Shown here in pieces: positions 36,235 to 59,436 of a DNA stretch of 64,000 nucleotides. The notes under the pieces are model-generated. The model searched no databases, was not told the DNA's origin, and saw only the letters and a list, made by a program, of their open reading frames with translations. Both the position numbers and the translations under genes were made by a program. Source of the stretch: Saprospiraceae bacterium. Lineage in GTDB: Bacteria; Bacteroidota; Bacteroidia; Chitinophagales; Saprospiraceae. Numbering within the stretch: the first letter of the stretch is position 1; every line of letters starts with the position of its first letter. The stretch lies in contig JAHDHQ010000005.1 of assembly GCA_020631235.1 (NCBI GenBank), forward strand, positions 101,182 through 165,181, given 5' to 3'.

Positions 36235-37659
36235 TTAAGGAGCTGTCCTAACAGTAGTATTTCTATTTATCCAGCAACCGACTTTAAAAGTGTCCCCTTC
36301 CTGTATGTTTCTCTGAAATATATCTGATTTCTTTGGCATATATTGTTTGTATGTATTAATCCATTTATTAGCCTCGGTAGCTACATTCGCATCGATTTGC
36401 TTGGCTTTATTAAACATATCTATGGCTGGCCATGTCACAATTTGGCTATCCCATCCTGTTCCCGGACCGCAAATTGGGCCAGAAGATGCATAAAGTTTGC
36501 CTATTAGAATATATGGTTCTCCCCAGTTTGGCTTAATGTCCGCAGCTTGCTGAGCATACTTTCTAGCTTTTGGATAATTCTTGATTTCTCCGTAATAGAT
36601 CTTAGCGATTAAAAATAGATATTTAGCTTTTTTTTCAATGTCGTCTTTACTATTTGCAAATTCCTCAAAATATTTAACGGCATTCTGATAATCTCCTGAT
36701 TCATAGGCGTTATAGGCTTGCCTTAAGACGCTTTCTTGAGGAGGGGCTACCTGACAATTTGTTTTTTTAGCTTGTATGACTTGTGCAAACTCTGTTTGGT
36801 TCTCAGCACATTCGGCATATTTGAGTTTTCTGAATACTTTATTGATGGCATCACAATCTTTTGGATTGTCTAAAAATTCTTGAAAATATTTATCCACGTA
36901 ATATTCGCAAGGGTATAAGCCTTTTATTCCTTCTAAATTTTCTAAACGCGGTGGAGCATAATCATTGACAATTTTCCAGGCATCACAATCTTTAACACAA
37001 TTAGCCATGCCTTTTTTCACAGCACTTAAAACAAGCTGTGCGTATTTTCCAGCCTCTTCTTTGCTGATAGCTCCATTGACTGCTTTGTCAAACAAAATCT
37101 TAGCAAATGGATTAACGATAAAATAATCCATATCCTCTCCTTTACTATCTATAGAGGCTTTAAATAATTCATAAATTTCTTCGTCAGAGCTGTGTTCTTT
37201 CATGTAATAATAAAGATCAAATCCTAATCTCCCTTTTACATAATCCTCATCTCCAAAACACTCAATACGTTTATTGTATATTGATTCTACAGAGTCTCTG
37301 TAGCTTTGCTTTAGATTGGGATCATTAGTATTAGCATAAAAATGCTTGTACATTTTCACACCATCATCAAATTGATACTTTATGCGACCATTTGCGGCTG
37401 GAGCTGTATAGTAAGCTTTTTCCCACATTGGAAATGCTTCTTCGAAATTATTCTGTTTGACTAAGTCTTTATATAAAACATAAGCCGTTTCTGTAGCATC
37501 TTTTTGGCTTGCAGGCAATTGGGATAGGGTAGCGCAAGGACCTATATTTTCTGCTGGTACTTCTTCTTTTACGGGTTCTTCGTTGACTTCTGGAGTAATG
37601 ACTTTAGGAGTACAAGCCATCCATGTAACAGAAAGAAGAAGGAATATGTATTTTCTCAT
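36235..37659 (-). CDS. TPR lipoprotein ending in a CWI motif; paralog of 58030-59436
   Basis: Lipobox WMAC; AFPMWEKAYYTAPAANGRIKYQFDDGVKMYKHF; KPNWGEPYILIGKLYASSGPICG; GDTFKVGCWINRNTTVRTAP. Start revised from 37686 to MRKYIFLLL. Confidence 0.8.
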   Translation of the reverse strand: MRKYIFLLLSVTWMACTPKVITPEVNEEPVKEEVPAENIGPCATLSQLPASQKDATETAYVLYKDLVKQNNFEEAFPMWEKAYYTAPAANGRIKYQFDDGVKMYKHFYANTNDPNLKQSYRDSVESIYNKRIECFGDEDYVKGRLGFDLYYYMKEHSSDEEIYELFKASIDSKGEDMDYFIVNPFAKILFDKAVNGAISKEEAGKYAQLVLSAVKKGMANCVKDCDAWKIVNDYAPPRLENLEGIKGLYPCEYYVDKYFQEFLDNPKDCDAINKVFRKLKYAECAENQTEFAQVIQAKKTNCQVAPPQESVLRQAYNAYESGDYQNAVKYFEEFANSKDDIEKKAKYLFLIAKIYYGEIKNYPKARKYAQQAADIKPNWGEPYILIGKLYASSGPICGPGTGWDSQIVTWPAIDMFNKAKQIDANVATEANKWINTYKQYMPKKSDIFQRNIQEGDTFKVGCWINRNTTVRTAP

Positions 37660-37779
37660 GAGTGTGATTGTTTTAAACTTAAACAAAAAAGGGCTTAAGA
37701 TAATCGTTAAAAAGTACTAAAATAGCTGGAAGATTTAGATTCATTCCACCTCAAATTTAATAAAGTGCTTCAAGGCTAA

Positions 37780-42588: not shown

Positions 42589-42635
42589 TAAAGGTAGTTC
42601 ATCAAATTTTGATGCTTATCACATGAAAATGTGAT
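42589..42635 (-). promoter_or_regulatory. Response-regulator gene promoter: inverted-repeat operator + -7 box
   Basis: Minus strand: ATCACATTTTCATGTGAT (42635-42618) - N21 - TACCTTTA (42596-42589). Confidence 0.75.
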
Positions 42636-42639
42636 TTTA

Positions 42640-42672
42640 AAAAAGCGATAAAGATTAAACCTTTATCGCTTA
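42640..42672 (-). terminator. Intrinsic terminator of the 691-aa FN3 gene/operon
   Basis: AAGCGATAAAG attaaac CTTTATCGCTT with an A-run. Confidence 0.85.
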
Positions 42673-42694
42673 CCAAACAAATCTTAATTAAAGC

Positions 42695-44770
42695 TTAGTA
42701 ACTGACTACAGTACTTAGCTTTGATTCTTTTCCCTTAATAGATTTTACTTTTATGGCGTAACTATAGGTGGTATCTGTTTTTATTCGATCATCAATAAAC
42801 TCAGTGGTATTTTCTACTTTTTTATAGCTGGTCAATTTACCATCATTAGATTTGCGATAAATTAGAAAGTAAATGCCTTCCGTATCTTCATAGTTCCAAT
42901 TCAGTTCGCACGTTTGCTCGTTTTTACTAACAGACAAATTGTCTATACTTTTTAAATAATAGGCCTCCCCCAAGCTCACCATCATAATTGATGAATATTC
43001 ACTCAAGTTATTTGCATCATCTTCTGATTGGAGTTTGTATTTATATACTATGTTTTCGCTTATTTCATTATCTATATAATGAGTTGCATCAGGGGATAAC
43101 TCAGCTAATAGTTCCCATTCTTTATCCGATGTTTTTCTGAATAATTTTTGTTTAACTACATCGTGACTTTTGCTATTATTAAATAGGATTTCGATGGATT
43201 CTTCTGAATTTTTATAATCAATCATCACTGGGGCTGTCGGTGCTACAATATCTGGTTTCATGACCTTTAATATCTCAGATGGATCAGACTCATTAAACTT
43301 AAAGTCGATGGCAGTGACTTTGTAGTAAATCTCTTCAGTAAGTGTTTTAAGGTGCAATGAATCTAAGAAAAGTGTATCACCAAGATACTTAGTAGATCTA
43401 GCGGTAAACACTGATTTATCATCATTGGAAAAATAGACTTTATAATTAGCAACATCTGCTTCGGGTGATTTATTCCATCTAAGTAAAAGATAGCCTGAAC
43501 TATCAACTATTGCATTTAAACCTGTAGGAGAATCAGGAGGAGTAGTGTCAATCAAATTGGCCAAATGTCTCAATGATTGTACTTCGTTACTGGCAGTATC
43601 TATGGCAGAAACAAAGTAATAATTGGCTATTAAATCAGTTTGCTTATGTTGATAGTTTCTTGTATCAGGGCTTAATAATTGGTCATTTAGTTTAGTGAAA
43701 TATCCATTGGCTTTTGTAGAATGATAAATATCGAAGCCTGATAAATCTTCTTCTTTCATTTCTGCTTCCCATTCCCATGAAAGGTTGATGGACATGTTTT
43801 CTTCTTGAGTACTGCTAAGTTTTCTTGGTGGCGAAGTAGAAGTTTTGTCTCTTCCCATTAATTTTAAAGTATCAGAATATGGGCTAAGATGGGCAAAACC
43901 GTCAATTCCAGCAATTCGATAAAAACGTGGAACATAATTTTGTTTAATTGAGTCTGTAAATGAAATGTGATTATAGGGGCCAGACAAATTAGTTTTAGTT
44001 TGGATAAATGGAATGTCATTTAATCTAGTAAAATTTATACCATCGCTAGATTTTTCGATGTAAAAACCCGAATTTGATTGGCCCACATCCTTCCAAGTTA
44101 AAGTTACATTTAGATCATTTTCTTCAGTTGATACAATTTCTGGAGGGTATCTATAAACTGCACTTCTTTTTGAGATTTTATAATATACAGTATCACTGCT
44201 TATTTCTTTGGAAACATTACTTACATAAAGTTTGTAGAAGTATGTATAATCTGCGTCGAAATACTCTTTATGAGAAAGCGCCGAGGCTTCGGCACATTTC
44301 TCGGAAAAATCTGCGGCTAGAAGTGCAAGACCAAATTTATTATTCATCTCCTCTTCGACCTTTAAATAGTTTGAAGAAGATGATTGTTGTTTCCCATAAA
44401 TTGCTTGTGCTGCAACTAAAGGAAGCTTATTTTCATTATCACTAAATATTTTCCAGTCGTCTAAAGGCCAAGGTTTAATAGGAGAAGAACTGACTTTCTT
44501 AAAAAGCACATTGTCTGCATGTCTTAAACTATCATTTTTTACTTTTTTTAGTTCTAACACATAGCCATTGGAATTGGCGATCTCCCATAATGGATAATTA
44601 TTAGGTGCCCACCTAAGGCAAATATTGCCATTATATATTTTGCCAATTAAACTCAATGATCGTTCTACTTTAGTTTGACTAGTTGTATCTGGATAGCTTT
44701 CTTCTTTTTCTTGTCCGTTTAACAATGTAAAGGACCAAAAAAGTAGGCTTATTAATATTGTATGCTTCAT
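42695..44770 (-). CDS. Secreted fibronectin type III repeat protein
   Basis: Signal peptide; FN3-like units such as PPDSPTGLNAIVDSSGYLLLRWNKSPEADVANYKVYFSNDD. Confidence 0.82.
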   Translation of the reverse strand: MKHTILISLLFWSFTLLNGQEKEESYPDTTSQTKVERSLSLIGKIYNGNICLRWAPNNYPLWEIANSNGYVLELKKVKNDSLRHADNVLFKKVSSSPIKPWPLDDWKIFSDNENKLPLVAAQAIYGKQQSSSSNYLKVEEEMNNKFGLALLAADFSEKCAEASALSHKEYFDADYTYFYKLYVSNVSKEISSDTVYYKISKRSAVYRYPPEIVSTEENDLNVTLTWKDVGQSNSGFYIEKSSDGINFTRLNDIPFIQTKTNLSGPYNHISFTDSIKQNYVPRFYRIAGIDGFAHLSPYSDTLKLMGRDKTSTSPPRKLSSTQEENMSINLSWEWEAEMKEEDLSGFDIYHSTKANGYFTKLNDQLLSPDTRNYQHKQTDLIANYYFVSAIDTASNEVQSLRHLANLIDTTPPDSPTGLNAIVDSSGYLLLRWNKSPEADVANYKVYFSNDDKSVFTARSTKYLGDTLFLDSLHLKTLTEEIYYKVTAIDFKFNESDPSEILKVMKPDIVAPTAPVMIDYKNSEESIEILFNNSKSHDVVKQKLFRKTSDKEWELLAELSPDATHYIDNEISENIVYKYKLQSEDDANNLSEYSSIMMVSLGEAYYLKSIDNLSVSKNEQTCELNWNYEDTEGIYFLIYRKSNDGKLTSYKKVENTTEFIDDRIKTDTTYSYAIKVKSIKGKESKLSTVVSY

Positions 44771-44793
44771 GTTAATTTATTTGTGTTTAGCTA

Positions 44794-47700
44794 TTAAAAA
44801 GACACCTTAAATTTTTCTGAATGGAACGATGCACTATGCCAATCTTCGCTAGTATTTGCATTTAACGTAGGAAATCGATAATACATAGTTAAGTCCATAC
44901 GTATATTATTTTCTTTCCTTTTATAGAATTCATAATATTCGAAATCCTCTAACCACATATTTTCTTTGTCAGGATATATTTGCCCAATATTTTCTCCTAA
45001 ACCAATCTCACCTAGACCCTTATTACCTACTAAGTGATTTACAAAAGCAAGATCGGTTTTAATCATTATTGTCGTTTGATCCCAATTTATTGTATTTACA
45101 TTTCCTGAACTGATTTCACTTTCTGTAAGGCTTAGCGTGTTAGTTTCTGCTTTGTTGCCTATGCCAATTTCATCTTGAATTCTATGAGCTTTAAGCAAAG
45201 GATCTCCGGCAGTTTCCCATGGGAATGTTTTGTCATGTTTATCTCTAAATTCTCTCCAAGATTGCTGAACATTACTATTACTCCAACTCTCACCATTTGG
45301 ATTGCCGTGAATAAAATCGTAATAAGCACCACCTGATTCGTTTAAGCTTTTAGCGTATCCATATTTGTATAATTCTTGAAATTCTATTAAAGGTGGGAAT
45401 TGACGTCTACCATTTTTAGTAAAGCCTTCTAAATCAATCTTATCAAATGGCTCACCTTCATCTACTTTTATAGCGTTGCTCCATGGTACTTCAACTAATT
45501 TATAGTCAGGCACCCATGTTCCGGCACCATTTGGTTGCGGATTGTTGTAATCATAGTATCCTCCATTGCTAATGTATCGGTTAGCATATCTTAAAACCCC
45601 AATATGCTCTTTATTAACATCTACTTTTTCTTTGTAGGTGTTAAATTTACTTGTTCCAAAATAGTATTGATACATTACTTTATCTACCGTTTTTACAGTT
45701 GATTCAGAGACCACATCAAATGCTTTTATATTAGCTGTGTCTTGTTCAGTTTCATTTTTGATAACAATTTCTTTTGTTTCACCAGTTTGTGAATTTTCAA
45801 TGGTAGTTCTTCTAATAATTTCAACTAAATAAACCTGCTCATTATTTAAGCTTGGTTTGTTGTAACTTATATATTGATAATTTCCTTTAATGCTATTCAT
45901 AACTGATTCAGTAGAATTTCCGCTTGAGATTTCTGTATATTTTGCGATTAATTGTTGCTTATCATTTGATTTATTTATGACACTTGAATGGAGAGCACTT
46001 TTGAGTTTCATAAACCCTTTATCCCCATGGTTTTTCAGATGATATTTCTGTCCAATGATTGGATAAGTAAGATTTACCACTTGATCATCGATTTTATCTG
46101 GTGCAACACCAATTTTAAACTGATTACTTTTAAACTCTTTCCAAACTTCGGCCTGAAAATTCTTATTGAAGACTTTAAGGTCTTTGTTATTATCGTTAAG
46201 ATCTCTAGCTCTGATTTCTAATTGAACTGTATAGAATGTATTTTCCTTAAATTCATCACTACCATTGGTAATCCAAGTGAATTGTAAGCCATCTTGCTTC
46301 TTTACTTTATAGTATCCATTAATAATGTTGTTAGGTTTTGCTGTCTCGAATACTTTAAATGTATGAATGTAAGGTTCTAGCCTATTCCATTTATTATAAT
46401 TTTCGTGCTCAGGATCTTCCGATTTTCTAAATTTGTATTCTCTCAATTCATTCAAGAGTGTAAGATCAAAATCAGTATAAACACTCACTTCTTTATCGCC
46501 ATTTTTAGGGCTTAGCTCATCTATAAAAGCTATATCTCCAAAAGGACTGTTTCCAGTAGGGTCACACTTACTCCCAAAATCGACAGCGAAACCAATAGAG
46601 CCTTTTACTAATCCGTCTAAGACATTATAATTTAGTCTTCCTTTACCTGCCACCCAAGTTGGATTAGGACCTCCCCCCTTGACGGCTAATGCCGCAGATG
46701 CTTGGAAAATATTAATATATTCATCTACGAACCAAAGATCTACATGAACATCCACTGAGCCCCAAATTCCAGCATAGACTTGGCCTGTTGCATACCAGCC
46801 ATTTATACCGATCGGACTTCCATCACATAGTGTATTTTCGTTATGAACCATGGCGATATCAAAGCCCGCTGTTGCACCAAAGTTTACATGAACAAAATCA
46901 TAGTAAGTTTCATCCATATTATAATAGAATTGAAGCCCAAATGCAACACCTTTACCAACATCATATAGAGTTTGCTTCTTCTCCCTTTCGGCAATGGCTT
47001 TATCTAATCCAGCTGCATTGCCGTTATTGCTTGCCTCTTCTGTTTTATTTTTATATCCAGGATATTCTCCGCTTAGAATTTGATCAATTTCTTCGGGCAT
47101 GGAAGGCAGTTTATTGCTTAAGCCTGGACCAATCATGAAGTAGCCTGCGAGAATGGGTTTAGATTCTGAAGGAATGGCATGTATTCGTAGTTTTCCTCGT
47201 TCATCAACATCTTCTTTTTGAGGTTTCCCCATAAATACATACCAATTCTTAGGGTTTTCTGTTTCAAAATGCATCTCAGCTTCAACCATCAAACCATCAT
47301 TACCTGCTCCTGATATAACACCAGGCATATTTACATAGGTATCAAGCTTACCATGAAATACAAGCTCGGGATCTTTGGCTAAATTCGAAACATTAATATT
47401 TATATCTCCTTTGGCTGTAACCTTCGCATTCGCAGGATCACAACCTTTCCCAGTTAAAAAGTAGGCATTGGTTGATAGAGAAATATCTAAGCCTGTTCCT
47501 TCATTTGTAGTAAATTCTATTCCTAATGTTCCATCAGCAAAAAAGGTTTCCGTTTTCTCATATAGCCCTATAATTACAGATGCACTCAGACCCAAAGTGA
47601 CATCACCTTTATTTTGTGGTGCTTGAGGAGAGAAAGTCAAACCTGACGGATTTGCTGTTTCTTCATTTTCGGTATCATCTTCAGATGGAGTGATGCTAGC

Positions 47701-50700
47701 TAAATCAATTGCTTGGTCATTATCTATAGTCATGTTGTAATAAGCACCACCACCAAAACCATATAGACCTTGACCGGTGGTTCCTATTGGAACTCCTTTA
47801 GCTAGCTTAATTAAACCTTCTGCCTGCCAGTACGAATAATAATTAGACGAACCATAGTCACTAAAACTACTTCCTTCTTCTTTATAAGCTCCAAACTCTG
47901 TAGCTAGTTGAACATCCATACCTGCAGGTGTGCCTACCGCTAGGTTTCCTTTTACACCTTTATAATCATCTTCATTGTAGAAACTTAAATCTCCATCAAA
48001 GCTAAATCCGGATATAGAACCACCTACGGTCATGCTTTCTGGATTGACAGATTGTAATGTATAATATCCATTGTCCATAGAGCTGACAAAGCTTATCTCG
48101 GCGCTAGCTGTTAGCCCATCTTTATCCCCAACTAAACTAAGTTTTGGTTTTATGGTAAATGTTATTCCATTATCATCACCTTCAATGCTTGAGTATTCTG
48201 AGGGGTCAGCGTTTATTGGAATTCCATTAATACTGCCTTGAGCATCCTCATCAGTTGTATCTTCCTCATTTGCATCATTCTCTTGCGCTGCTAAGCTAAA
48301 ATCGGGAGCCGTAATTCCTTCTTTTGTACTTAATAAAAAACCTTCAAATCCTAGACCTGGAATATTAAAATCCATAGTTTCAGCAAGAGAAGCTACATCT
48401 TCTGGAAGTATATTTTCATTGATACTAATCACTCCATTTAGGATTGCTGAAATTGATTTCTCCGTTTTCGAATATTTGAAAGTGATTTTACTGTCACCTC
48501 TAAGTTCAATGTTGGCCACTAAGGCAGGAACTGTTAGTTGTTCATCAGGTTCAACACTAAATGTTATGCCTACAAAATCGTCTGAGACGTTATCATTAGC
48601 TTCTTCATTTATGATTTGGAGAGTACCTTGATAAGCAAGTCCTTCTCCTTTTTCTAATATGGGTAAACCAATTTGTCCGTGAATACTACTTTGTTCAAAA
48701 GTGTTTCGCACAATTTGTAGTTTGAAAGTATCTAAAGACATTGCCCAGCCATCAAAACTACCTTCATCTTTATTTAATATACCTCTTTGTTCGAATCCTG
48801 TTGTCAAACCATCTTCATCGATAATTAAGTGGTTTATTTCAAGGGCTAAACGATCTTCACTTAAGGCCCAATCTGCTGGAGTTTGCATGGTAAATCGTTG
48901 AATGTAAAGACCTTCCCAAGTATTGGCTTGATCCTCGTTTTCAAAATCTAGTACTTCAGATAAAAAGCCAAATTCATCACTATCTGCCATGTTTTCATCA
49001 AAAGGACTTTGTATATCTGATTGGTCAAAAACGGCTTCTTCTACTTCCCAACTAAAACCTGCTAATCCTGGTACTTGGAACGCACTGATACTTCCAGATA
49101 ATACATATTGATTTCCTTTTGAAAGATCTCCTTTTAAGTTGGCAACTACTTGTCCATCACCGATCGATCCATTGGTTCCATCTGGCAAAACTATATCTCT
49201 GGAAAAAGTAAGATCTGCCTGAATTCTACCTGAATCAAATCCATTACAATCCATTAAAATATAACAACCACTGTCTTGTGCAGCACCATCGCCAACGCCT
49301 CGAAATGACATTTGGTTTTCACCATAGCTAAAGTTATAATCACTCATCAGATATAATAAAACTCCTTTGTCAAAACCATTAGGTGAGAAATTAATTTGTG
49401 ATGCGGCAAAACTTGGCAATTCAATCCACTCTGGGTTTTCCATCGAAAACATAGCTTCTAATTCAGCATTAGTAGGTGTAAATAGCATATTAGAAAGGCC
49501 AATAACCATTTCTTGACCATCAATATTTCTATCCCAACCTAAAGGAAGACTTACAGCCTCGTCACCTGTTAATGCAGAAACTAGTTTGCTTGTATTCATA
49601 TAAGCGTCCCTTAGTTCAGCAGAACCATCCACGCCTAAAACTGGGATTTGAGCACCTAGATGTTCCACACCTTCTATCATGGGTGAGATTTCGCCATTAT
49701 CTTGCATGGCAATGGCTTGACCATTAAAAACTTGGTTTGATTTATTTACCTGCAAATCGGAAAATGCTACCTTGATACTTGCACCCGCTAAGAAATTTAC
49801 AGAAATTTCACCTTCTCCTGTATATCCATTTGCTTCATCACCATCACTTATGGTATTTATTTTCATAGCAAATTTTCCTATTTTAACTTCATCCTGTTCT
49901 TCAATTTCAATGTCATTTTGATCCGTTGGAAGTTGTGTGCTTGTAGTGCCGACACATCCTCCTTCATCATTGGCCACAATTTCTTCATCTTCGTCCTCGA
50001 TTTCTTCTTCAGGTAATGTCCCAAAGGTGAAATGAATCACCTCACTATGTCCGCCAAATTGGAAAGCAACTTGATTTTCTGGGTCTATGGCTTTTAATTT
50101 AACAGCATAAGTATGTCCATATTCTAATAGGTCTTCATTATCATTAGTATTAAGTGAATAACCATTGTCTAAGTTCTGTAGATATACCTCAAAAGCATCT
50201 ACATTTGGAGTAAACATGGCTTCTTGTTTTTGGCTTATTGGATAATTATTGGCCGTTAAATCGATCAGCTTTAATTCGTATTCTATCCGATCTTTTAATT
50301 CAAAGTCAGTTAGATTATGTATCCAATTCAGATTGATAATTTCAAAATCTTCAAATATTTGATCATTAAAGGGGAACATGATCTCAGGCCTAGAAGGAAA
50401 TTCTGCAGTAAAGGAAAAACAACTTATCTCACCTGGTTCTGATAATGGTTCACCAAATTCACTAAAGGCATGAACACAAATTTCGTATTCTCCTTCTGGT
50501 AGTTGTCTGTACAATAGTAAGTTATTTCTTTGTTCGTCTGACAAGCCTTGAATATTTGCATCTTGATCCGATAAGCCAGCGAAGGCTTCCTCTATCTCAT
50601 CTTCACCAAGAATCGTTGATCCGGGTCCGAATATTATTGATTGGTTACTGAGTCCATCGAGTTCAATACTGAAGCCACCTGTTTGCTTTAGAGAAGCAGA

Positions 50701-50907
50701 AAATATAGCTTCTACTGGTTCGCTAGTATTATTATTTACGATAAAAATTCCTGTTTCTAAATATTCTGAATAGGCCTCTAAATTGGTAGGGAAAGGAGGC
50801 GTGAGTAAAACACTAATATCCAAGGGGTAAGTATTTTGTCCAATGCTGTTTGTAACACATATTAGAACTGTTAAAAGGATCCATAGGAATTGATGTATTT
50901 TTTTCAT
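44794..50907 (-). CDS. Giant secreted surface protein (2037 aa), possibly TANFOR-type
   Basis: Signal peptide; N-terminal PPFPTNLEAYSEYLETGIFIVNNNTSEPVEAIFSASLKQTGGFSIELDG and FRPEIMFPFND-like segment; acidic linker PEEEIEDEDEEIVANDEGG; no recognisable T9SS CTD. Confidence 0.78.
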   Translation of the reverse strand: MKKIHQFLWILLTVLICVTNSIGQNTYPLDISVLLTPPFPTNLEAYSEYLETGIFIVNNNTSEPVEAIFSASLKQTGGFSIELDGLSNQSIIFGPGSTILGEDEIEEAFAGLSDQDANIQGLSDEQRNNLLLYRQLPEGEYEICVHAFSEFGEPLSEPGEISCFSFTAEFPSRPEIMFPFNDQIFEDFEIINLNWIHNLTDFELKDRIEYELKLIDLTANNYPISQKQEAMFTPNVDAFEVYLQNLDNGYSLNTNDNEDLLEYGHTYAVKLKAIDPENQVAFQFGGHSEVIHFTFGTLPEEEIEDEDEEIVANDEGGCVGTTSTQLPTDQNDIEIEEQDEVKIGKFAMKINTISDGDEANGYTGEGEISVNFLAGASIKVAFSDLQVNKSNQVFNGQAIAMQDNGEISPMIEGVEHLGAQIPVLGVDGSAELRDAYMNTSKLVSALTGDEAVSLPLGWDRNIDGQEMVIGLSNMLFTPTNAELEAMFSMENPEWIELPSFAASQINFSPNGFDKGVLLYLMSDYNFSYGENQMSFRGVGDGAAQDSGCYILMDCNGFDSGRIQADLTFSRDIVLPDGTNGSIGDGQVVANLKGDLSKGNQYVLSGSISAFQVPGLAGFSWEVEEAVFDQSDIQSPFDENMADSDEFGFLSEVLDFENEDQANTWEGLYIQRFTMQTPADWALSEDRLALEINHLIIDEDGLTTGFEQRGILNKDEGSFDGWAMSLDTFKLQIVRNTFEQSSIHGQIGLPILEKGEGLAYQGTLQIINEEANDNVSDDFVGITFSVEPDEQLTVPALVANIELRGDSKITFKYSKTEKSISAILNGVISINENILPEDVASLAETMDFNIPGLGFEGFLLSTKEGITAPDFSLAAQENDANEEDTTDEDAQGSINGIPINADPSEYSSIEGDDNGITFTIKPKLSLVGDKDGLTASAEISFVSSMDNGYYTLQSVNPESMTVGGSISGFSFDGDLSFYNEDDYKGVKGNLAVGTPAGMDVQLATEFGAYKEEGSSFSDYGSSNYYSYWQAEGLIKLAKGVPIGTTGQGLYGFGGGAYYNMTIDNDQAIDLASITPSEDDTENEETANPSGLTFSPQAPQNKGDVTLGLSASVIIGLYEKTETFFADGTLGIEFTTNEGTGLDISLSTNAYFLTGKGCDPANAKVTAKGDININVSNLAKDPELVFHGKLDTYVNMPGVISGAGNDGLMVEAEMHFETENPKNWYVFMGKPQKEDVDERGKLRIHAIPSESKPILAGYFMIGPGLSNKLPSMPEEIDQILSGEYPGYKNKTEEASNNGNAAGLDKAIAEREKKQTLYDVGKGVAFGLQFYYNMDETYYDFVHVNFGATAGFDIAMVHNENTLCDGSPIGINGWYATGQVYAGIWGSVDVHVDLWFVDEYINIFQASAALAVKGGGPNPTWVAGKGRLNYNVLDGLVKGSIGFAVDFGSKCDPTGNSPFGDIAFIDELSPKNGDKEVSVYTDFDLTLLNELREYKFRKSEDPEHENYNKWNRLEPYIHTFKVFETAKPNNIINGYYKVKKQDGLQFTWITNGSDEFKENTFYTVQLEIRARDLNDNNKDLKVFNKNFQAEVWKEFKSNQFKIGVAPDKIDDQVVNLTYPIIGQKYHLKNHGDKGFMKLKSALHSSVINKSNDKQQLIAKYTEISSGNSTESVMNSIKGNYQYISYNKPSLNNEQVYLVEIIRRTTIENSQTGETKEIVIKNETEQDTANIKAFDVVSESTVKTVDKVMYQYYFGTSKFNTYKEKVDVNKEHIGVLRYANRYISNGGYYDYNNPQPNGAGTWVPDYKLVEVPWSNAIKVDEGEPFDKIDLEGFTKNGRRQFPPLIEFQELYKYGYAKSLNESGGAYYDFIHGNPNGESWSNSNVQQSWREFRDKHDKTFPWETAGDPLLKAHRIQDEIGIGNKAETNTLSLTESEISSGNVNTINWDQTTIMIKTDLAFVNHLVGNKGLGEIGLGENIGQIYPDKENMWLEDFEYYEFYKRKENNIRMDLTMYYRFPTLNANTSEDWHSASFHSEKFKVSF

Positions 50908-50931
50908 GTTAGTAGATTGAAATATATTTGA

Positions 50932-52662
50932 TCAATTAGTTTTTTTAGGTTTGGATGTTGACTTGAAATCAGTCAAAAAGCTGTAACCAACTCTGGCTGT
51001 TATTCTTAATTCTTCGAATGGATTTTCAGACCTTGATCTATTTAAATAAGAGACATTTAACTGGCTACTAAAAGCTTTTGAGGGTTTGTAGCTCGTACTT
51101 ACTTTTGTGCTTAAGGTGTTTCCATCTTGATTGAAATCGAGAAAGTTTAAATGATAAGAGCCTCCTAAGTTTATCTTCCATTTATTTTCAAAAAGTTTTT
51201 TACCAAGTTTAAGCGAAAGACCATAGCGCTGAGTATTTCTGTCAGGAAATTGATTTTCAGAATAATTGAGCCCAGTTGAGAGGATGAGTTTTTTTGGTTT
51301 AATGTTTATGTTATAGCTAATATTACCATTGTAATTATCTATGTTTCTTTCTTCATCTAAGACACTTAATACATCAACTAATTGCTGAGCATTAGCGTTT
51401 AGAGTAATGCTAGAAGGGTATGTTTTGCCTAATTTGACACGAATAGTTCCACCTTTTATATTGGTTGTTTGGGCATATCTTAAGGTATCAGACACGTTAA
51501 TAAATCCTGGTGTTCTGTCTGTTTGGAAATTAGAATATCTTGCAGACACAACTAACCATTTTGAAGGAATTAAACTTAAGGTTCCATTGGCAATCTGTCG
51601 TTTATTAGTATAGCTTCTTAAGCTATTTAAATTATTTCTTTGAACACCTCCTGATCCGTTAAAACGAAGTCTATTTTTCCAAGCTGTGAGATTAAACTTG
51701 ATGGTATAATTTTCGAGATCCTCTTGGAAATAATAGATGCCTAAACTTTTATAATGTGGATCCACTCTTTTATAGTTAGCGCTTACACCAAAGTTTTTAA
51801 ATTTTAATCCTACACTTGCATCACCAGCAAATTCTAAGCGGGTGGAAAGATTAACAGTAAATAGTTTATCGAGTTGTTGGAGGCTATTATTTGAACTTGA
51901 ATCTATGAGTTCTATAGCAGAATTTTGATCTAAAGTAATAGCACTTGCAGCGACATTTGCCCCAATAAAGAAAGACTTAAATAGGGTAACTTGGAAAGCG
52001 CTTCCTAAGGCAATATTTTCTTCAGCTTTTACCCATTCATTGAGTTCATCGGGAGATGTGATCAGTGGGTTGTCCTTGGCTCTGAGGAAATTAAATTCAA
52101 TGTAGCTCTTATCATTTCCAAATCCTGTAAGTAGGGTTAATGCTTTTCTTTTATAAGTTTCTAATAATTCTATATTTCCAACCAAAGTATCAATTTGAGC
52201 CAATGGGTTTTCTAAGTTTCCGTAAGCTGCCGAGAATCTAAATTTGCCTGGCGTTAATTCTACACCTCCACCTTTAATAACTTGTCCATTAAAAATGTAA
52301 GGGTTTAGATTAAGTCGTACATTTCCAGCTTGAAGCGAAATCCATTTCCATCTTGGATTAATTGCGTATCTGTTAAATGGGTTGTTTAGTGAGCTCTGCG
52401 AATCTCTGTATGTAAACGACATTGGAACACTAAATCCATAGATAGAAAATGTTGTATTTGCTGAAAGAAAATAGCTAAATGGGCTTCTTCTGGAATCAAT
52501 CCCAAAAGCATCGTAAGCAGAAGAACCAATACTTATGTTTCCATTAATTTTAAATGGATTGTTTTTATCAAAGTTTTCTAAATTTTGGCTTTTTATATTG
52601 TTTAATGCCCCAAAAAAAAGCAACAATGATAGAGTCAATTTAAGAAGATAGGAATTTTTCAT
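50932..52662 (-). CDS. Outer-membrane beta-barrel protein, first gene of the surface operon
   Basis: Signal peptide MKNSYLLKLTLSLLLFFGALNNIKSQ; regular beta-barrel strands. Start revised from 52722, which lies in the operator. Confidence 0.75.
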   Translation of the reverse strand: MKNSYLLKLTLSLLLFFGALNNIKSQNLENFDKNNPFKINGNISIGSSAYDAFGIDSRRSPFSYFLSANTTFSIYGFSVPMSFTYRDSQSSLNNPFNRYAINPRWKWISLQAGNVRLNLNPYIFNGQVIKGGGVELTPGKFRFSAAYGNLENPLAQIDTLVGNIELLETYKRKALTLLTGFGNDKSYIEFNFLRAKDNPLITSPDELNEWVKAEENIALGSAFQVTLFKSFFIGANVAASAITLDQNSAIELIDSSSNNSLQQLDKLFTVNLSTRLEFAGDASVGLKFKNFGVSANYKRVDPHYKSLGIYYFQEDLENYTIKFNLTAWKNRLRFNGSGGVQRNNLNSLRSYTNKRQIANGTLSLIPSKWLVVSARYSNFQTDRTPGFINVSDTLRYAQTTNIKGGTIRVKLGKTYPSSITLNANAQQLVDVLSVLDEERNIDNYNGNISYNINIKPKKLILSTGLNYSENQFPDRNTQRYGLSLKLGKKLFENKWKINLGGSYHLNFLDFNQDGNTLSTKVSTSYKPSKAFSSQLNVSYLNRSRSENPFEELRITARVGYSFLTDFKSTSKPKKTN

Positions 52663-52688
52663 AAAGCCTCTATTTAAAGAATGTACTG

Positions 52689-52735
52689 TAAAATTAAAGA
52701 GCAGCAAAGCTATTTTAATCACATAAAAATGTGAT
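52689..52735 (-). promoter_or_regulatory. Surface-operon promoter: inverted-repeat operator + -7 box
   Basis: Minus strand: ATCACATTTTTATGTGAT (52735-52718) - N21 - TAATTTTA (52696-52689), 34 nt before ATG 52662. Confidence 0.75.
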
Positions 52736-52797
52736 TTAAGAGGGGTTAGTGCTCATTATTTCTAATGCTTGAAGTACAATAATTACCTTGTGAGGAA

Positions 52798-52833
52798 TAA
52801 AAAAAGAGGTGCAAAATAACATTGCACCTCTTA
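52798..52833 (-). terminator. Intrinsic terminator of the 1656-aa cargo gene
   Basis: AAGAGGTGCAA...TTGCACCTCTT with an A-run. Confidence 0.88.
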
Positions 52834-52855
52834 GACTTTTATATATAAACCATCA

Positions 52856-55800
52856 TTACTTAATTATTGATATTTGTTTGCTTGCTTTGATATTTGGGCC
52901 AATTATTTGGAGCAAATAATTACCTGCTGGAATCATAGAAATATCAATAGTTTCTGTAATGGAATCTGTCTGATTAATTGTTTGCTTATGTACCAACTGT
53001 CCTTGATAGTTAAAAACATTCAATGTGCCTTCAAAATATTCTGAAGATTGTAAATCAACAGTTATGTGGTTTGTTGCAGGATTCGGATAAGCCTTGAATG
53101 AGTTTACAATAGTTAAATGTTGATTTGAAGAAATTGTTTCTATAACTGTCTCAAAGGTGCTAGTACAACCGTGCACATCAGTTACATAAACTTCGATTCT
53201 TCCTTCGTTTAATCCTTCGGCAAAGCTTCCTTGTTGACCATCTTCCCACTCAAAATCAAAGGGACCATCACCTTCAATAACTGTAATGTTTGAAGTTCCA
53301 TCGAAACCTGCAGGACTAGCTGGTGTATTTTCAAAACTAACTTCTATGGTAGGTGGATTTTCAAGAAGGGTGCTTTGAGTTGCCTGGCAACCATTAGGAC
53401 CAGTTACTATCACGGTGTAGATTCCAGCTACACCTGCTTGGATGTTTTGATCAAATGATTCAAAGCCCTCAGGCCCATTCCATTCGAAACTTGAACCATT
53501 TGGAGGGTTCGTTAATGTAATATCTCCTAAGTTGTCAAAACAGTCGATTATGCTTGCTTCTAAATCAAATACTGGATCATTAAAATCAGCTAAAACTTCT
53601 ACAGTTGATGTCACACTACAACCGTTTGCTGCAGTAGCTACGACTGTATATTCTCCAGCATTTTGAACCAATGGATTAGGGTCAATAGATATAAATCCAT
53701 TGGGTCCAGTCCACATGACTGATACATCATCATCCGAAGTGACAGATAAATTAATTACTGCATTGTTACAATCTAGTGTGCCGCCTGTTGCAAAAATTTC
53801 GGGCGTTACCACATCACTAAATACTTCGACTGTTGCTACAGAGACACATCCATTTGCACTAGTAGCTTCCACGGTATAAAATCCAGCTTCCACAACTGTT
53901 GGGTTAGGCTCAGATGAAGTAAAACTACTCGGACCGCTCCACAAATAGCTTACTTCAACATCAGCGCTTGCTGAGATGACAATAAATTCATTTTGGCAAT
54001 CTAATGTCCCACCTGTTATTTCTACTTCGGGAAATTCAAAATCTTCTTCTATCGTTAAAGAGGCTACTCCCGAACAACCGTTTTGTCCAGTTACAGTTAA
54101 AACATACATTCCTCCTTCAGAAACTTCTGGCGTTAATTCACTGGATGTAAATCCATTGGGACCAGTCCACATAATATTGATGTTTTCACCTTCCACACTT
54201 CCTTGTAAATTAGTTGTTGGCTGAGCACAATTTATTTGACCGTCGAAAACCACGGGGATTGGTGAATTAAAATCTTCTTCAATTACTATAAATGTGTTAG
54301 CATTACATCCATTGGTACTTGTAACTTCAATGGTGTAAACACCAGGTTCAGCTACTTCTATGTTTTTATCATCTGAAGTAAAGTTATTAGGTCCCGACCA
54401 TGCGTATATTACATCTTCATTATTTATCTCGACATTGATAATAACTGTACTATTATTACAATCAATAACTCCACCGGTTAATGATATAACTGGTAGATCA
54501 TCATCAGCAGTTACTTCTACCGTCATCATACTAGTACAACCATTGGTGCCGGTTGCAACCACAGTATAGCTTCCAGCCGTATTTACTTGAGGATTTGCGA
54601 TTGCTGCTTCGAAATCATCCGGACCAGTCCACATATAATTTACGTTTTCATCTGTTGAATTTGCACTTATGGTAATCACGTTGTTTTCACAATTTAGTAA
54701 ACCACCAGTGGCTGTTAGATCAGGTCCTTCACCATCAAAGCTTACTTGTACCATAACAGAATTCATGCAGCCATTTTGACCTATTGCAGTTGCGGTATAA
54801 TCTCCTGCTTCACTAACAATAGGGCTTGATTCTTCACTAGAAAATCCGTTCGGTCCTTCCCATTCAAAAGTTACTCCTTCATCTGGGGATGAAACTGAAA
54901 TAGTAGTGCTTTCATTGGCACAATTAAGCATTCCACCCTCCGCAATGACAACGGGAATGGTTAAATCTTCTGAAGCAACGGCTAAGCCAGTAGCGACACA
55001 GCCATTAGGTGCCATTATAGTCACTGTGTAAATACCTGCTTCATCAACAGATATTGTAGATTCATCGCTAGTAAACCCGTTAGGCCCAGTCCAAGTATAT
55101 GTGACACCTTCTGTGTCTGAACTGGCTGACAAACTAGTTTCTGCATTATTGCAATCGATTACTCCACCAACGGTGGTTAAGTCTGGAACATTGGTATCGG
55201 TTAACACCTCCACTTGGGCAGAAGCAGTACATCCATCTAATGTTTCAGCAGTTACAGTATAAGTACCAGCTTGGCTTACGATTGGATTTTGTTCGTTCGA
55301 AGAAAAACCACCTGGACCTTGCCAAGAATACGTTACATCCGATGTAGAGTTTGCTGACAAGGTTATTGCTCCCCCTTGACAATCTAAGGTTCCACCTTCA
55401 GCCGTTAAATCAGGAGCTGTTTCAAAATTTACATTGATATTATCTTCAGCGCAACAACCATTTTCTGAGTAAACAACTACAGAGTAATTATCAGTTGTGT
55501 TTACCGTAATGCTTTGGGTTGTTTCTCCAGTGGACCACAAATAACTAGTGCCTGCTTCTGCTGTAATTTCATAATCAGGCACATCGCACAATACTATATC
55601 TTCTCCTAAATCGATAGAGAAATTATTTTCAATGGAAACATTCCAATTGTATGATACGGCGTTTCCACAATAATCAGAAGCCGTATAGGTATAGGTGTAA
55701 ACTTCAACGATATTAGCATCACAATCATCTGTAGAAGAAGTAATAGTAAATTCAATTAAGTCTGAAACATCTCCATTGCAAGCATCCATGCTCATTAATA

Positions 55801-57796
55801 CTGGTGGATCTGGAAATTCGTCACCACATTGAATGACAACATCAGCTATCTGGCCTGATAAAATAGGTGCTTGAGTATCAACTAATTCTATAGATAAAGA
55901 GGTAAACCCTATAACACCGCATGCACTTTCTGCTTGATATTCAATAGTAGTCAAGCCAGATGATGATCCATCACATTCTGCGTCGAAAAAGCTACCTGAC
56001 TCAGATCCAACAACTTCACCATTACAAGTTCCTGCACTCGGAATATAACTATCGATGATCTCTTGTAAATCATCTACTCCACATTCGCCGGTAACCAACA
56101 TTGGTAAATCAAAAGGTGCTAGCCAGACCGGTTGTAATTGGTCTGTAATTATTACTTCATAACTTGCCTCAGCAATATTTCCACAAGCATCTTCGATTAT
56201 GAAGGAGTGTGTTTCAGTCTCAATAATCCCACTTCCATCAGAACAATCATTAGCTACAATTGAAATGGTTTCGATTAATCCAAAGGTAACATCTCCTTCA
56301 CAAGCATCATCTGCGAATATATCTACTCCAATAGCAGGAATATTTGGTAAAAAGTCATCGCCGCAATCATACATAATTGGTTCAGATGGGATACCACTAA
56401 TAATAGGAGCTTGTGTATCTAAAAGCTCTACAGTTATGGATTTATAGCTTGAACTAACTACATCAGGAAAAGGTCCATTTTCATTTCCTGTTTGGTACCA
56501 TTCAGTTAAACTATTTGCTCCGCCACAAATATTTAATTCGTATGCATTATCTAATTTTTCTATCCAATTTTCAAGATTAGGACAATTGTCAGTAACACTT
56601 AAATTTGCTTCTTCATCTAAAATCATTTGGGCTGCATCGTCAACCCCACATTCTCCAATTAATGTTATATTTAAATCTCCTGTAAAAGAAGGTGCAATAC
56701 CATCCATTACACTCACGACGGTTTGACAAGTTGTTTCATTCCCATTTCCATCTTCAATAGACCAATTATAGGTATAATATCCAGGGGTATTACTCCATGA
56801 GTATGGAAATGAACTGCCTGGAATTAAACCGTAAGGACCGAATAAAGTGCCATCAGGGTCAATCAGGGTTACTAGCCCTGATACATCACAATTGTCCATA
56901 AACGTGGGATCAATGATTTCCCATTCTGCTTCACAATTCTCATCAAAGAATACATCAAAACTAGTTGGACATTCCACGAAAACCGGAAATTCAGAATCCG
57001 TAGCTTCGAGTAAAAAATTATAAGCTGGACTTGTACAACCATAATCATCTTCCACAAATATATTGTTCTCACCTGTTTCTATCCATAAATTAATAGCTTC
57101 TACATTTGCTGATGTGGAATTACTTAAATCATTTGCATAAACAGTCGATGCAGCACAAATTCCATCTTCCACCACAATGTCAATTTGTGCTTCAGAGCCA
57201 GGGCATTCTGGCGCTGATCCATTTAAAACGACACTGGTCACAGATGGACAAATATTTCCAAATACAATTTCAGAATAGAATACTTCTGAAAAATAGCTTG
57301 CTTGAAAATTATCATTACAAATTTTTATTTTCCAAATTCCATCAGCATTAATACCATCATCGTTAAGACTGCCAAAATCATCCTCAGGTTGTGATTCCAC
57401 ATAGTATAAACTGCTCCATGTATCTTGAGGTGTAGGGAGTGAAGGACACGGAATGTATCTCACAGCACAAATTCCTCCAGACCATCCGGGAAATGATCCT
57501 GAAGTGGATGCTGCCATTACAAATTCTGAACCATCGGGTGCTTCTAATACTACGTCGACAAAATAGCCGTCAAAGACATCTATATCTATAAAAACTTGAG
57601 TAATGCCTAAATTATCAACGCCTAAATTGCCAATGCCGCTCACACTCACATTAATTTCTTGAGGAGCTCCTACACATTCGTCAAATACAGGACCGGTAAA
57701 GTCTCCAACGAAAGTTTGTGCAAAAGCACTTCCTGTTAAACTTATAAAAAGTAAAATTTTTAAATAATTAATAATGGTAAGTAGATAGGATTTCAT
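52856..57796 (-). CDS. Giant T9SS cargo: P-domain-like N-terminus, HYR-like region, tandem Ig-like repeats, CTD
   Basis: N-terminal GNLGVDNLGITQVFIDIDVFDGYFVDVVLEAPDGSEF; about 9 units of xGGxLDCxN...WTGPNGFTS...AGxYTVxxTxxNGC; CTD AYPNPATNHITVDL...PAGNYLLQIIGPNIKASKQISIIK. Start revised from 57826. Confidence 0.88.
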   Translation of the reverse strand: MKSYLLTIINYLKILLFISLTGSAFAQTFVGDFTGPVFDECVGAPQEINVSVSGIGNLGVDNLGITQVFIDIDVFDGYFVDVVLEAPDGSEFVMAASTSGSFPGWSGGICAVRYIPCPSLPTPQDTWSSLYYVESQPEDDFGSLNDDGINADGIWKIKICNDNFQASYFSEVFYSEIVFGNICPSVTSVVLNGSAPECPGSEAQIDIVVEDGICAASTVYANDLSNSTSANVEAINLWIETGENNIFVEDDYGCTSPAYNFLLEATDSEFPVFVECPTSFDVFFDENCEAEWEIIDPTFMDNCDVSGLVTLIDPDGTLFGPYGLIPGSSFPYSWSNTPGYYTYNWSIEDGNGNETTCQTVVSVMDGIAPSFTGDLNITLIGECGVDDAAQMILDEEANLSVTDNCPNLENWIEKLDNAYELNICGGANSLTEWYQTGNENGPFPDVVSSSYKSITVELLDTQAPIISGIPSEPIMYDCGDDFLPNIPAIGVDIFADDACEGDVTFGLIETISIVANDCSDGSGIIETETHSFIIEDACGNIAEASYEVIITDQLQPVWLAPFDLPMLVTGECGVDDLQEIIDSYIPSAGTCNGEVVGSESGSFFDAECDGSSSGLTTIEYQAESACGVIGFTSLSIELVDTQAPILSGQIADVVIQCGDEFPDPPVLMSMDACNGDVSDLIEFTITSSTDDCDANIVEVYTYTYTASDYCGNAVSYNWNVSIENNFSIDLGEDIVLCDVPDYEITAEAGTSYLWSTGETTQSITVNTTDNYSVVVYSENGCCAEDNINVNFETAPDLTAEGGTLDCQGGAITLSANSTSDVTYSWQGPGGFSSNEQNPIVSQAGTYTVTAETLDGCTASAQVEVLTDTNVPDLTTVGGVIDCNNAETSLSASSDTEGVTYTWTGPNGFTSDESTISVDEAGIYTVTIMAPNGCVATGLAVASEDLTIPVVIAEGGMLNCANESTTISVSSPDEGVTFEWEGPNGFSSEESSPIVSEAGDYTATAIGQNGCMNSVMVQVSFDGEGPDLTATGGLLNCENNVITISANSTDENVNYMWTGPDDFEAAIANPQVNTAGSYTVVATGTNGCTSMMTVEVTADDDLPVISLTGGVIDCNNSTVIINVEINNEDVIYAWSGPNNFTSDDKNIEVAEPGVYTIEVTSTNGCNANTFIVIEEDFNSPIPVVFDGQINCAQPTTNLQGSVEGENINIMWTGPNGFTSSELTPEVSEGGMYVLTVTGQNGCSGVASLTIEEDFEFPEVEITGGTLDCQNEFIVISASADVEVSYLWSGPSSFTSSEPNPTVVEAGFYTVEATSANGCVSVATVEVFSDVVTPEIFATGGTLDCNNAVINLSVTSDDDVSVMWTGPNGFISIDPNPLVQNAGEYTVVATAANGCSVTSTVEVLADFNDPVFDLEASIIDCFDNLGDITLTNPPNGSSFEWNGPEGFESFDQNIQAGVAGIYTVIVTGPNGCQATQSTLLENPPTIEVSFENTPASPAGFDGTSNITVIEGDGPFDFEWEDGQQGSFAEGLNEGRIEVYVTDVHGCTSTFETVIETISSNQHLTIVNSFKAYPNPATNHITVDLQSSEYFEGTLNVFNYQGQLVHKQTINQTDSITETIDISMIPAGNYLLQIIGPNIKASKQISIIK
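53375..55425 (-). repeat. Protein-coding tandem repeat, about 9 units of 228-234 bp
   Basis: Recurring ACAATC(T/A)A...CCACC (reverse of GGxxDC) at near-constant 76-78 codon spacing. Confidence 0.85.
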
Positions 57797-57823
57797 AATT
57801 ACTTGTTTGATTATATAATATCT

Positions 57824-57870
57824 CAAAAGTAATTTGATGATCCATCCTCTCAGTCACATGAAAATGTGAA
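57824..57870 (-). promoter_or_regulatory. Cargo-gene promoter: inverted-repeat operator + -7 box
   Basis: Minus strand: TTCACATTTTCATGTGAC (57870-57853) - N21 - TACTTTTG (57831-57824), 35 nt before ATG 57796. Confidence 0.75.
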
Positions 57871-58029: not shown

Positions 58030-59436
58030 TTATTTAAACCTGACCCTTACTGTTTCACCGATCCAGCAAGGAACTTTCACTGATTGTCCAGCCTTAACTT
58101 TTCTCATAAAGCCTTCTTGTTTTTCCGGTAATGAAGCATAGTATTTGCTTAATCTAGATTGCGCTTCTTCAGCAGCTTCCGGATCAATACTTTTTGCGTA
58201 TTCATATTTTTCCATAGCAGCAATTATAGCTAGTCTAACAGCCCAGTCATCACCACATCCACGAGCAGAACTTCCATACATATCACCTATGGTTATGTAA
58301 GGATCTCCCCAATTCGGTCTTAATTTGGCTGCTTCTCTTGCATTGTTCCTAGCATCACTATACTTCTTGAATTTACTATATTGAATTTTAGCGACAGAAA
58401 GTAAGTAACTTGCTTTTTTTACATTGTCAGTTTCCTTGGCAATGGCTTTTTCGTAGTAAGAAATAGCTCCTTGAAAATCACCCTCTTGTCTAAGTTTTTT
58501 TGCGTATTTCGCCGGATTATTCTCCTTATCGTCAGATAACATTTGAGCATTCGCTGCGGCAGCATAAGTTTTCCATTTGCCGTCTAGTTCCTTAACTAAT
58601 TCGTCATCATCAGCACAACCTTGGGCTTTTAGCTTTGCAAGTACTTTCTTTATAACATCTTTGTCATCAGGGTTAGCATCGTACTCAGGTCTTAATTTGT
58701 TTTTGAAAAATTCACAATCAAATATTTCACTTTCCACCGGCGCATAGTGCACTTTAGATGCTTTCCATGCTTGTTCGAAATAAGTGCCGTAATCTGCATT
58801 GTTTTCTATGTTATGTTGGGCAATTTTTTCTAGAGACTGGTAAATCTCTAAAGCTTGTGCTTTTTCTATTTTACCCTTTTGGTATTGATACACTGCAATT
58901 TTTGCCAGTGGATCGAAAACAATATATTCCACATCATTACCACCTAAGTTCATCGCTTCTTGTAAAACTTCAAAGTTTTTAGAATAGGGAGAATTTAGAG
59001 AATAGTACATATCATATCCTTGTCTACCTCGTAAATAGGAGATACGTTGGTTTACACATTCTTCTGTATCTCCACATTTTAAAGAAATGCTTTTTGCTCT
59101 GTAACATTCTACTGCTTGGTCATATAAGGCTACAACTTTGCTTGCAAATTCTTTTTTCTCAGCATCATCTGTAGAGTTTTGAAATTTGTGAAGATAGATT
59201 TTAGCTCCATCTGTCATATGGTAATCTCTTTTTCCGTCTGCGGCTGGGGCTATATCGTATGCTTTTTGCCAGTTTTCGAAGGCAGTAGAATAATCTTCCG
59301 TCTTTAAGGCTGATCGATAGATAGAGTGTGCATCTGTAGCTTCACTTTCTTTTTCATTTCCAATCCAATTTGCACATTGTGCATTTCCAAATGTAGCTAT
59401 TCCAACAAAGAATAACATGTACATCAATTTACTCAT
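58030..59436 (-). CDS. Secreted TPR protein ending in a CWI motif; paralog of 36235-37659
   Basis: AFENWQKAYDIAPAADGKRDYHMTDGAKIYLHKF; KLRPNWGDPYITIGDMYGSSARGCGDD; GQSVKVPCWIGETVRVRFK. Confidence 0.82.
   Translation of the reverse strand: MSKLMYMLFFVGIATFGNAQCANWIGNEKESEATDAHSIYRSALKTEDYSTAFENWQKAYDIAPAADGKRDYHMTDGAKIYLHKFQNSTDDAEKKEFASKVVALYDQAVECYRAKSISLKCGDTEECVNQRISYLRGRQGYDMYYSLNSPYSKNFEVLQEAMNLGGNDVEYIVFDPLAKIAVYQYQKGKIEKAQALEIYQSLEKIAQHNIENNADYGTYFEQAWKASKVHYAPVESEIFDCEFFKNKLRPEYDANPDDKDVIKKVLAKLKAQGCADDDELVKELDGKWKTYAAAANAQMLSDDKENNPAKYAKKLRQEGDFQGAISYYEKAIAKETDNVKKASYLLSVAKIQYSKFKKYSDARNNAREAAKLRPNWGDPYITIGDMYGSSARGCGDDWAVRLAIIAAMEKYEYAKSIDPEAAEEAQSRLSKYYASLPEKQEGFMRKVKAGQSVKVPCWIGETVRVRFK

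Follow-up and report, generated by a model that had tools for sequence, protein, structure and literature searches.

A candidate operator of a NarL/LuxR-type response regulator at a fixed distance from the –7 box in a surface-protein locus of Saprospiraceae

Introduction

Three promoters within a 15-kb locus of a Saprospiraceae bacterium share an inverted repeat at one distance from the –7 box, which raises the question of which protein reads these repeats and whether it switches the genes on or off. Two-component regulators that control a small local regulon are already known as a kind of system. FimS/FimR of Porphyromonas gingivalis, another member of Bacteroidota, is likewise a sensor kinase and response regulator (RR) acting on surface-structure genes (fimbriae), and FimR binds directly to the promoter of mfa1 and to the first fim-cluster gene (PMC1974823). 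We analyzed the stretch of 64,000 nucleotides that contains the locus (hereafter, the window), the genome to which it belongs and the genomes of relatives. We argue that the three palindromes are very probably operators of the neighbouring RR, which would be a class-II-type activator of its own gene, of a barrel–giant–FN3 operon and of a gene encoding a T9SS cargo protein.

Results

Palindromes and –7 boxes in the window

We re-read the positions of the three minus-strand palindromes and of the –7 boxes predicted to follow at 21 nt, and found them exactly as claimed (Table 1). As the original prediction had also described, palindrome sequence and spacing are alike at all three promoters while the 21-nt spacers bear no sequence relationship to one another, and a clear TTG at –33 is absent from each promoter. 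The perfect motif TCACAT-N4-ATGTGA occurs three times in the 4,185,856-base genome, compared with approximately 0.5 occurrences expected from base composition, and all three lie within the 15-kb locus; random matches elsewhere, which would have spoken against the prediction, did not appear. When a TAnnTTTR box was added and a spacer of 20–22 nt permitted, the genome again yielded three matches, each at 21 nt, and the reversed-motif control for palindrome plus box yielded none in the whole genome. Seven one-mismatch palindromes were found outside the locus across the whole genome, every one within a long stop-free frame and with no TAnnTTTR box on either strand over the following 60 nt. Relaxing the motif to CACATN4ATGTG gave five copies in the genome, including the three at the locus. 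Because the TAnnTTTR box occupies only approximately 0.5% of positions within 100 bp upstream of other genes in the window, chance does not account for its presence at a single offset in all three promoters.

Table 1. Features of the locus, with positions in the window
Feature	Positions	Strand	Remarks
TPR histidine kinase, 774 aa	39605..41926	+	TPR, HisKA_3, HATPase_c; convergent with the RR gene
NarL/LuxR-type RR, 207 aa	41929..42549	–	Response_reg and GerE
–7 box TACCTTTA, RR promoter	42589..42596	–	21 nt past operator 1
Operator 1 (candidate), ATCACATTTTCATGTGAT	42618..42635	–	5' of the RR gene
FN3-domain secreted protein, 691 aa	42698..44770	–	Third gene of the barrel operon
Giant secreted protein, 2037 aa	44797..50907	–	Second operon gene
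Putative outer-membrane beta-barrel protein, 576 aa	50935..52662	–	First operon gene
–7 box TAATTTTA, barrel–giant–FN3 operon promoter	52689..52696	–	21 nt past operator 2
Operator 2 (candidate), ATCACATTTTTATGTGAT	52718..52735	–	5' of the barrel–giant–FN3 operon; kept in G001, G002, G019 and G140
Cargo protein, 1646 aa, PKD/Ig-like	52859..57796	–	T9SS C-terminal sorting domain (Por_Secre_tail)
–7 box TACTTTTG, cargo promoter	57824..57831	–	21 nt past operator 3
Operator 3 (candidate), TTCACATTTTCATGTGAC	57853..57870	–	5' of the cargo gene; kept in G002 and G019

Genes of the locus

The RR carries a receiver domain (PF00072, 6.5e-20) in which the acidic pocket (E10, D11 and D12), the phospho-acceptor D57, T85 and K107 are all present, followed by a C-terminal GerE helix-turn-helix (PF00196, 8.4e-13, above the cut-off) with the recognition helix ISINTVRTHIK, which contains N180. 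In the kinase, HisKA_3 (1.2e-9) and HATPase_c (3.1e-6) were detected and the H-box SSDLHDDVG is intact; no operator was found at the kinase gene. This protein is probably the cognate sensor of the RR, as judged from adjacency only, and a kinase 48% identical to it was found near the RR of the same-genus genome G002.

The minus-strand genes are ordered cargo, barrel, giant, FN3 and RR, with the barrel, giant and FN3 genes closely spaced. Direct reading identified a terminator-like hairpin with a T-run ahead of each of the three promoters, which is consistent with three separate transcription units. The sorting domain of the cargo protein was detected by both PF18962 (1.6e-11) and TIGR04183 (1.6e-11) above their cut-offs, and the protein is thus a T9SS substrate. 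No family match was found for the 576-aa protein, whose sequence suggests an outer-membrane barrel, and the giant had no match in Pfam or NCBIfam; these two and the FN3 protein begin with apparent signal peptides. The cargo protein had been described as 1656 aa long, a length that did not hold, as its start was corrected to the ATG at 57796, giving 1646 aa; the barrel start was likewise corrected to the ATG at 52662. Both start codons lie 26–27 nt past their boxes, and the longer mechanical ORFs of these two genes begin within the operator or the box. TPR-repeat proteins of similar build, possibly paralogues, flank the locus (36235–37686 and 58030–59436).

Conservation at orthologous loci

The same locus is held by two genomes of the same genus (G002 and G001, with RRs 83% and 75% identical to the window RR, respectively) and by one of another genus (G019, 55%), and the spacing on which the original prediction relied recurs there. 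The palindrome, separated from the box by 21 nt, is present at each of the three promoters in G002, at the barrel and RR promoters in G001, and at the barrel and cargo promoters in G019. A further operator with a 21-nt spacer stands at a contig end of G001 (G001:C62), where the promoter is truncated and the downstream gene cut off. In G019, the cargo and RR genes diverge from a region with a single palindrome, and the spacing of this palindrome toward the RR gene is less clear, with approximately 18 nt to the box-like TATCTTAG. A more distant genus with a diverged locus (G140) contains a barrel–giant–FN3 operon, approximately 27–30% identical, behind an operator at 22 nt. With respect to the giant itself, the alignment with the G002 orthologue (L041 8783–14047) stops at residue 1774 of the 2037; the remaining ~260 residues are unmatched in G002, though approximately 800 bases remain there before the next gene, which indicates a variable C-terminus.

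This conservation across genera contradicts the idea that the sites reflect chance, a recent duplication of promoter segments or RNA hairpins, an explanation that could appeal to the hairpin-forming capacity of palindromes and to the presence of three similar sites inside 15 kb but that we regard as having almost no probability. A recent duplication was rejected on the unrelated spacers, given that palindrome and spacing are kept. A hairpin or terminator in RNA was rejected as well, because the palindromes are upstream of the –7 box and hence outside a transcript that starts at the box, and because separate terminator-like hairpins precede the promoters.

Covariation of the operator with the recognition helix

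We read the sequences upstream of 196 different homologous RR genes. The operator was found 21–22 nt ahead of the –7 box at orthologous RR genes in many Saprospiraceae, and also at the RR orthologues of Winogradskyella, Psychroserpens and Gelidibacter (Flavobacteriaceae). Before one RR gene in G006 (L046, 15682 and 15722), two operators stand 40 bp apart, approximately four helical turns.

For the covariation analysis, we used 107 RRs, comprising those with 43% identity or more to the window RR together with L131 and L193, and scored the operator as present when it had at most one mismatch or was the CTACAT variant. The operator was present for 38 of the 50 RRs with Asp or Asn at the position aligned with N180, whereas it was present for 0 of the 55 with Glu (Fisher P = 3e-13, from an exact-motif count on a slightly different RR set and with kinship ignored). 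On a tree computed without the N180 column, there were seven supported independent pairs, with an average of 4.8 concordant and 0 discordant; the tree-aware sign test alone was borderline, given the few pairs (median P = 0.06). Some Asp/Asn RRs have no operator, for example, L135 (59% identical), L207 and L209.

In one relative, G111, a Glu-type RR that is 46% identical to the window RR accompanies homologues of the barrel, giant and cargo genes. There, the intergenic region shared by the RR and barrel genes and the cargo promoter each carry CACCCTACAGGGTG, a site of the CACCC-N4-GGGTG type, 22 nt from –7-like boxes (TATATTTG toward the RR gene, TACTTTAG toward the barrel gene and TACCTTGC toward the cargo gene; the latter two, at two of the three promoters, are each one base off TAnnTTTR). 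The CACCCTACAGGGTG 14-mer has only two copies in the G111 genome. The module is thus kept with a different RR type and different operators; in other words, regulator and operators change together, and this switch is the strongest indirect argument for recognition of these sites by the RR.

The assignment of the sites to the LuxR/NarL regulator is accordingly supported by the orthologous RR promoters, by the covariation with the recognition helix and by the G111 switch, and the retention of the operator before the RR gene and its targets in relatives speaks for the predicted autoregulation. That the sites are bound by some different DNA-binding protein, whether a second RR, a CRP/FNR-like protein or a nucleoid protein, with the adjacent RR merely one more target, seems to us quite improbable: the genome does have nine GerE-domain matches, but the window RR is the sole RR of its group there, the three other GerE proteins that we read have different helices (ISDQTVGVH, ISEHTVLTH and ISLKTVESH), and the identity of the operator follows that of the RR helix, changing when the RR changes. 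The CRP site is TGTGA-N6-TCACA. A CRP/FNR-type site was rejected, as the half-sites of the palindromes have the opposite polarity to this consensus and as the RR is the protein indicated by the covariation.

Spacing across the family

We scanned 148 Saprospiraceae genomes with the pattern CACATN4ATGTG-N{21,24}-TAnnTTTR, using the reversed pattern as the control, and obtained 55 matches in 22 genomes versus three for the control. All 55 matches had a gap of 23 or 24, that is, 21 or 22 nt past the 18-bp palindrome. When the gap was opened to 12–38 with the box TAnnTTTG, 35 of the 52 matches fell at gaps 23 and 24 (counted by hand from the list), and the other 17 were distributed over 25 gap values, at approximately 0.7 each versus approximately 0.5 for the control. 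One exception was G172, in which three CACATCATCATGTG operators in one region (G172:C3:45962, 52558 and 59572; L131) all have a gap of 34 and are therefore 10 bases, or one helical turn, further from the box than usual; the first of them stands 5' of a related RR gene (38% identical).

In other genera, the same operator type was found ahead of unrelated genes, indicating that regulon content varies between lineages. In three genera, the operator precedes members of apparently one family of small proteins (L094 1057–1656, L110 1040–1705 and L127 9737–10327; approximately 200 aa, with 'SGLPIP..YL...GIY...LIGG.ILG'), a recurrent non-surface target; in L127, this gene is divergent from the RR gene.

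The TAnnTTTG box is located at –12 to –5 in Flavobacterium psychrophilum (PMC9723704), and on this basis the 18-bp site would occupy approximately –51 to –34, centred at about –42.5 (–43.5 with 22 nt). A fixed spacing of 21 or 22 nt and a palindrome over the –33 region, as expected of a class-II-type site, were both found. The overlap with the –33 position would also suit an RR that binds but represses, so that the palindrome blocks this region, the RR gene is negatively autoregulated and the surface genes are silenced until release. We consider this unlikely. Occlusion tolerates a variable position, yet the spacing to the –7 box is exactly conserved; a gap of 34 at three G172 promoters, one helical turn out, fits contact-dependent activation better; and the clear –33 TTG is absent from all three window promoters. 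The fixed spacing and the one-turn variant together favour contact-dependent activation.

Other palindromes with the same geometry

Among 164 RR promoters lacking the CACAT operator, 14 other 18-bp palindromes were found 21–22 nt before TAnnTTTR, versus one or two at each of the other offsets; these 14 are not all independent, since several of the RRs are related, and that of L200 is a one-mismatch CACAT operator. CACCC-type sites, some with a variant half-site, were found in the Emticicia/Lacihabitans/Runella group and for related RRs of Saprospiraceae, and other RR promoters carry ATCCCAT..ATGGGAT or CCCCAC..GTGGGG sites. A simple code from residue to base was rejected, as no fewer than two operators (CACCC..GGGTG and CCCAT..ATGGG) are used by Glu-class RRs. 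The proposed residue link accordingly concerns only whether the CACAT operator is present, and no base-by-base code is claimed.

These observations lead us to lean, with some reserve, toward a more general proposal: across Bacteroidota, many NarL-type RR genes may have their own cognate palindrome 21–22 nt before a TAnnTTTG box, with a half-site that follows the recognition helix, and surface modules may pass between RR clades with all of their operators re-written. If this is true, the promoter of an RR gene would reveal the DNA target of that RR, from which the regulon could then be predicted genome-wide.

Discussion

The regulon reading of this locus is strongly supported by the comparisons of sequence presented here. 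In the mechanism that we propose, the convergent TPR kinase would pass phosphate to the RR, a dimer of which would bind ATCACAT-N4-ATGTGAT directly. The bound RR would replace the missing –33 contact in a class-II-type activation, and the resulting small local regulon would comprise the RR itself, the barrel–giant–FN3 operon and the T9SS cargo gene. Activation rather than repression, positive autoregulation and dependence on phosphorylation are all inferred.

The targets differ from those of FimS/FimR in that T9SS cargo, barrel, giant and FN3 genes are involved here. Against the FimS equivalog model NF053520, the window kinase scored 68.5 bits (E = 3.5e-19) with a cut-off of 600, and it was thus not assigned to FimS. 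The words 'footprint' and 'inverted repeat' are absent from the text of the FimR study (PMC1974823), and that study thus offers no operator for comparison.

The window RR shares its family (receiver plus GerE) with NarL/NarP of E. coli and with Gram-positive VraR-type regulators, and its matches in the PDB include VraR (3e-27) and NarL (9e-20). Regulators of the NarL/NarP and VraR types use short palindromic operators close to the promoter. The candidate operator of the window RR differs in being CACAT-N4-ATGTG at a single fixed spacing of 21–22 nt to the Bacteroidota –7 box. The RR promoter of one relative, L029, carries ACTACCCATATGGGTAAT, which we take to resemble the NarL heptamer.

TANFOR (TIGR02542) loci adjoin T9SS substrates and FN3/PKD proteins, according to passages of Jana et al. 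(2020, PMC7073777); the neighbourhood in common with the window consists of giant secreted proteins, FN3 proteins and a PKD/Por_Secre_tail T9SS substrate, and the same passages do not discuss regulators of TANFOR loci. The giant homologue of G140 matched TIGR02542 at 5e-10 and 41.7 bits, under the curated cut-off of 67. The window giant was rejected as a TANFOR protein, as this model gives no match to it.

Our searches of the open-access literature, which omits most subscription journals, yielded no description of an operator for Bacteroidota regulators of this type, and the operator, its geometry and the residue covariation appear to be undescribed there. The present case offers an operator that is precisely defined and fixed in its geometry, and a single residue as a handle on specificity, together with an apparent natural re-writing of operators as a gene module passed to a different regulator. 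It thereby provides a route to sequence-based prediction of RR targets, including those of RRs beside T9SS cargo and giant secreted proteins.
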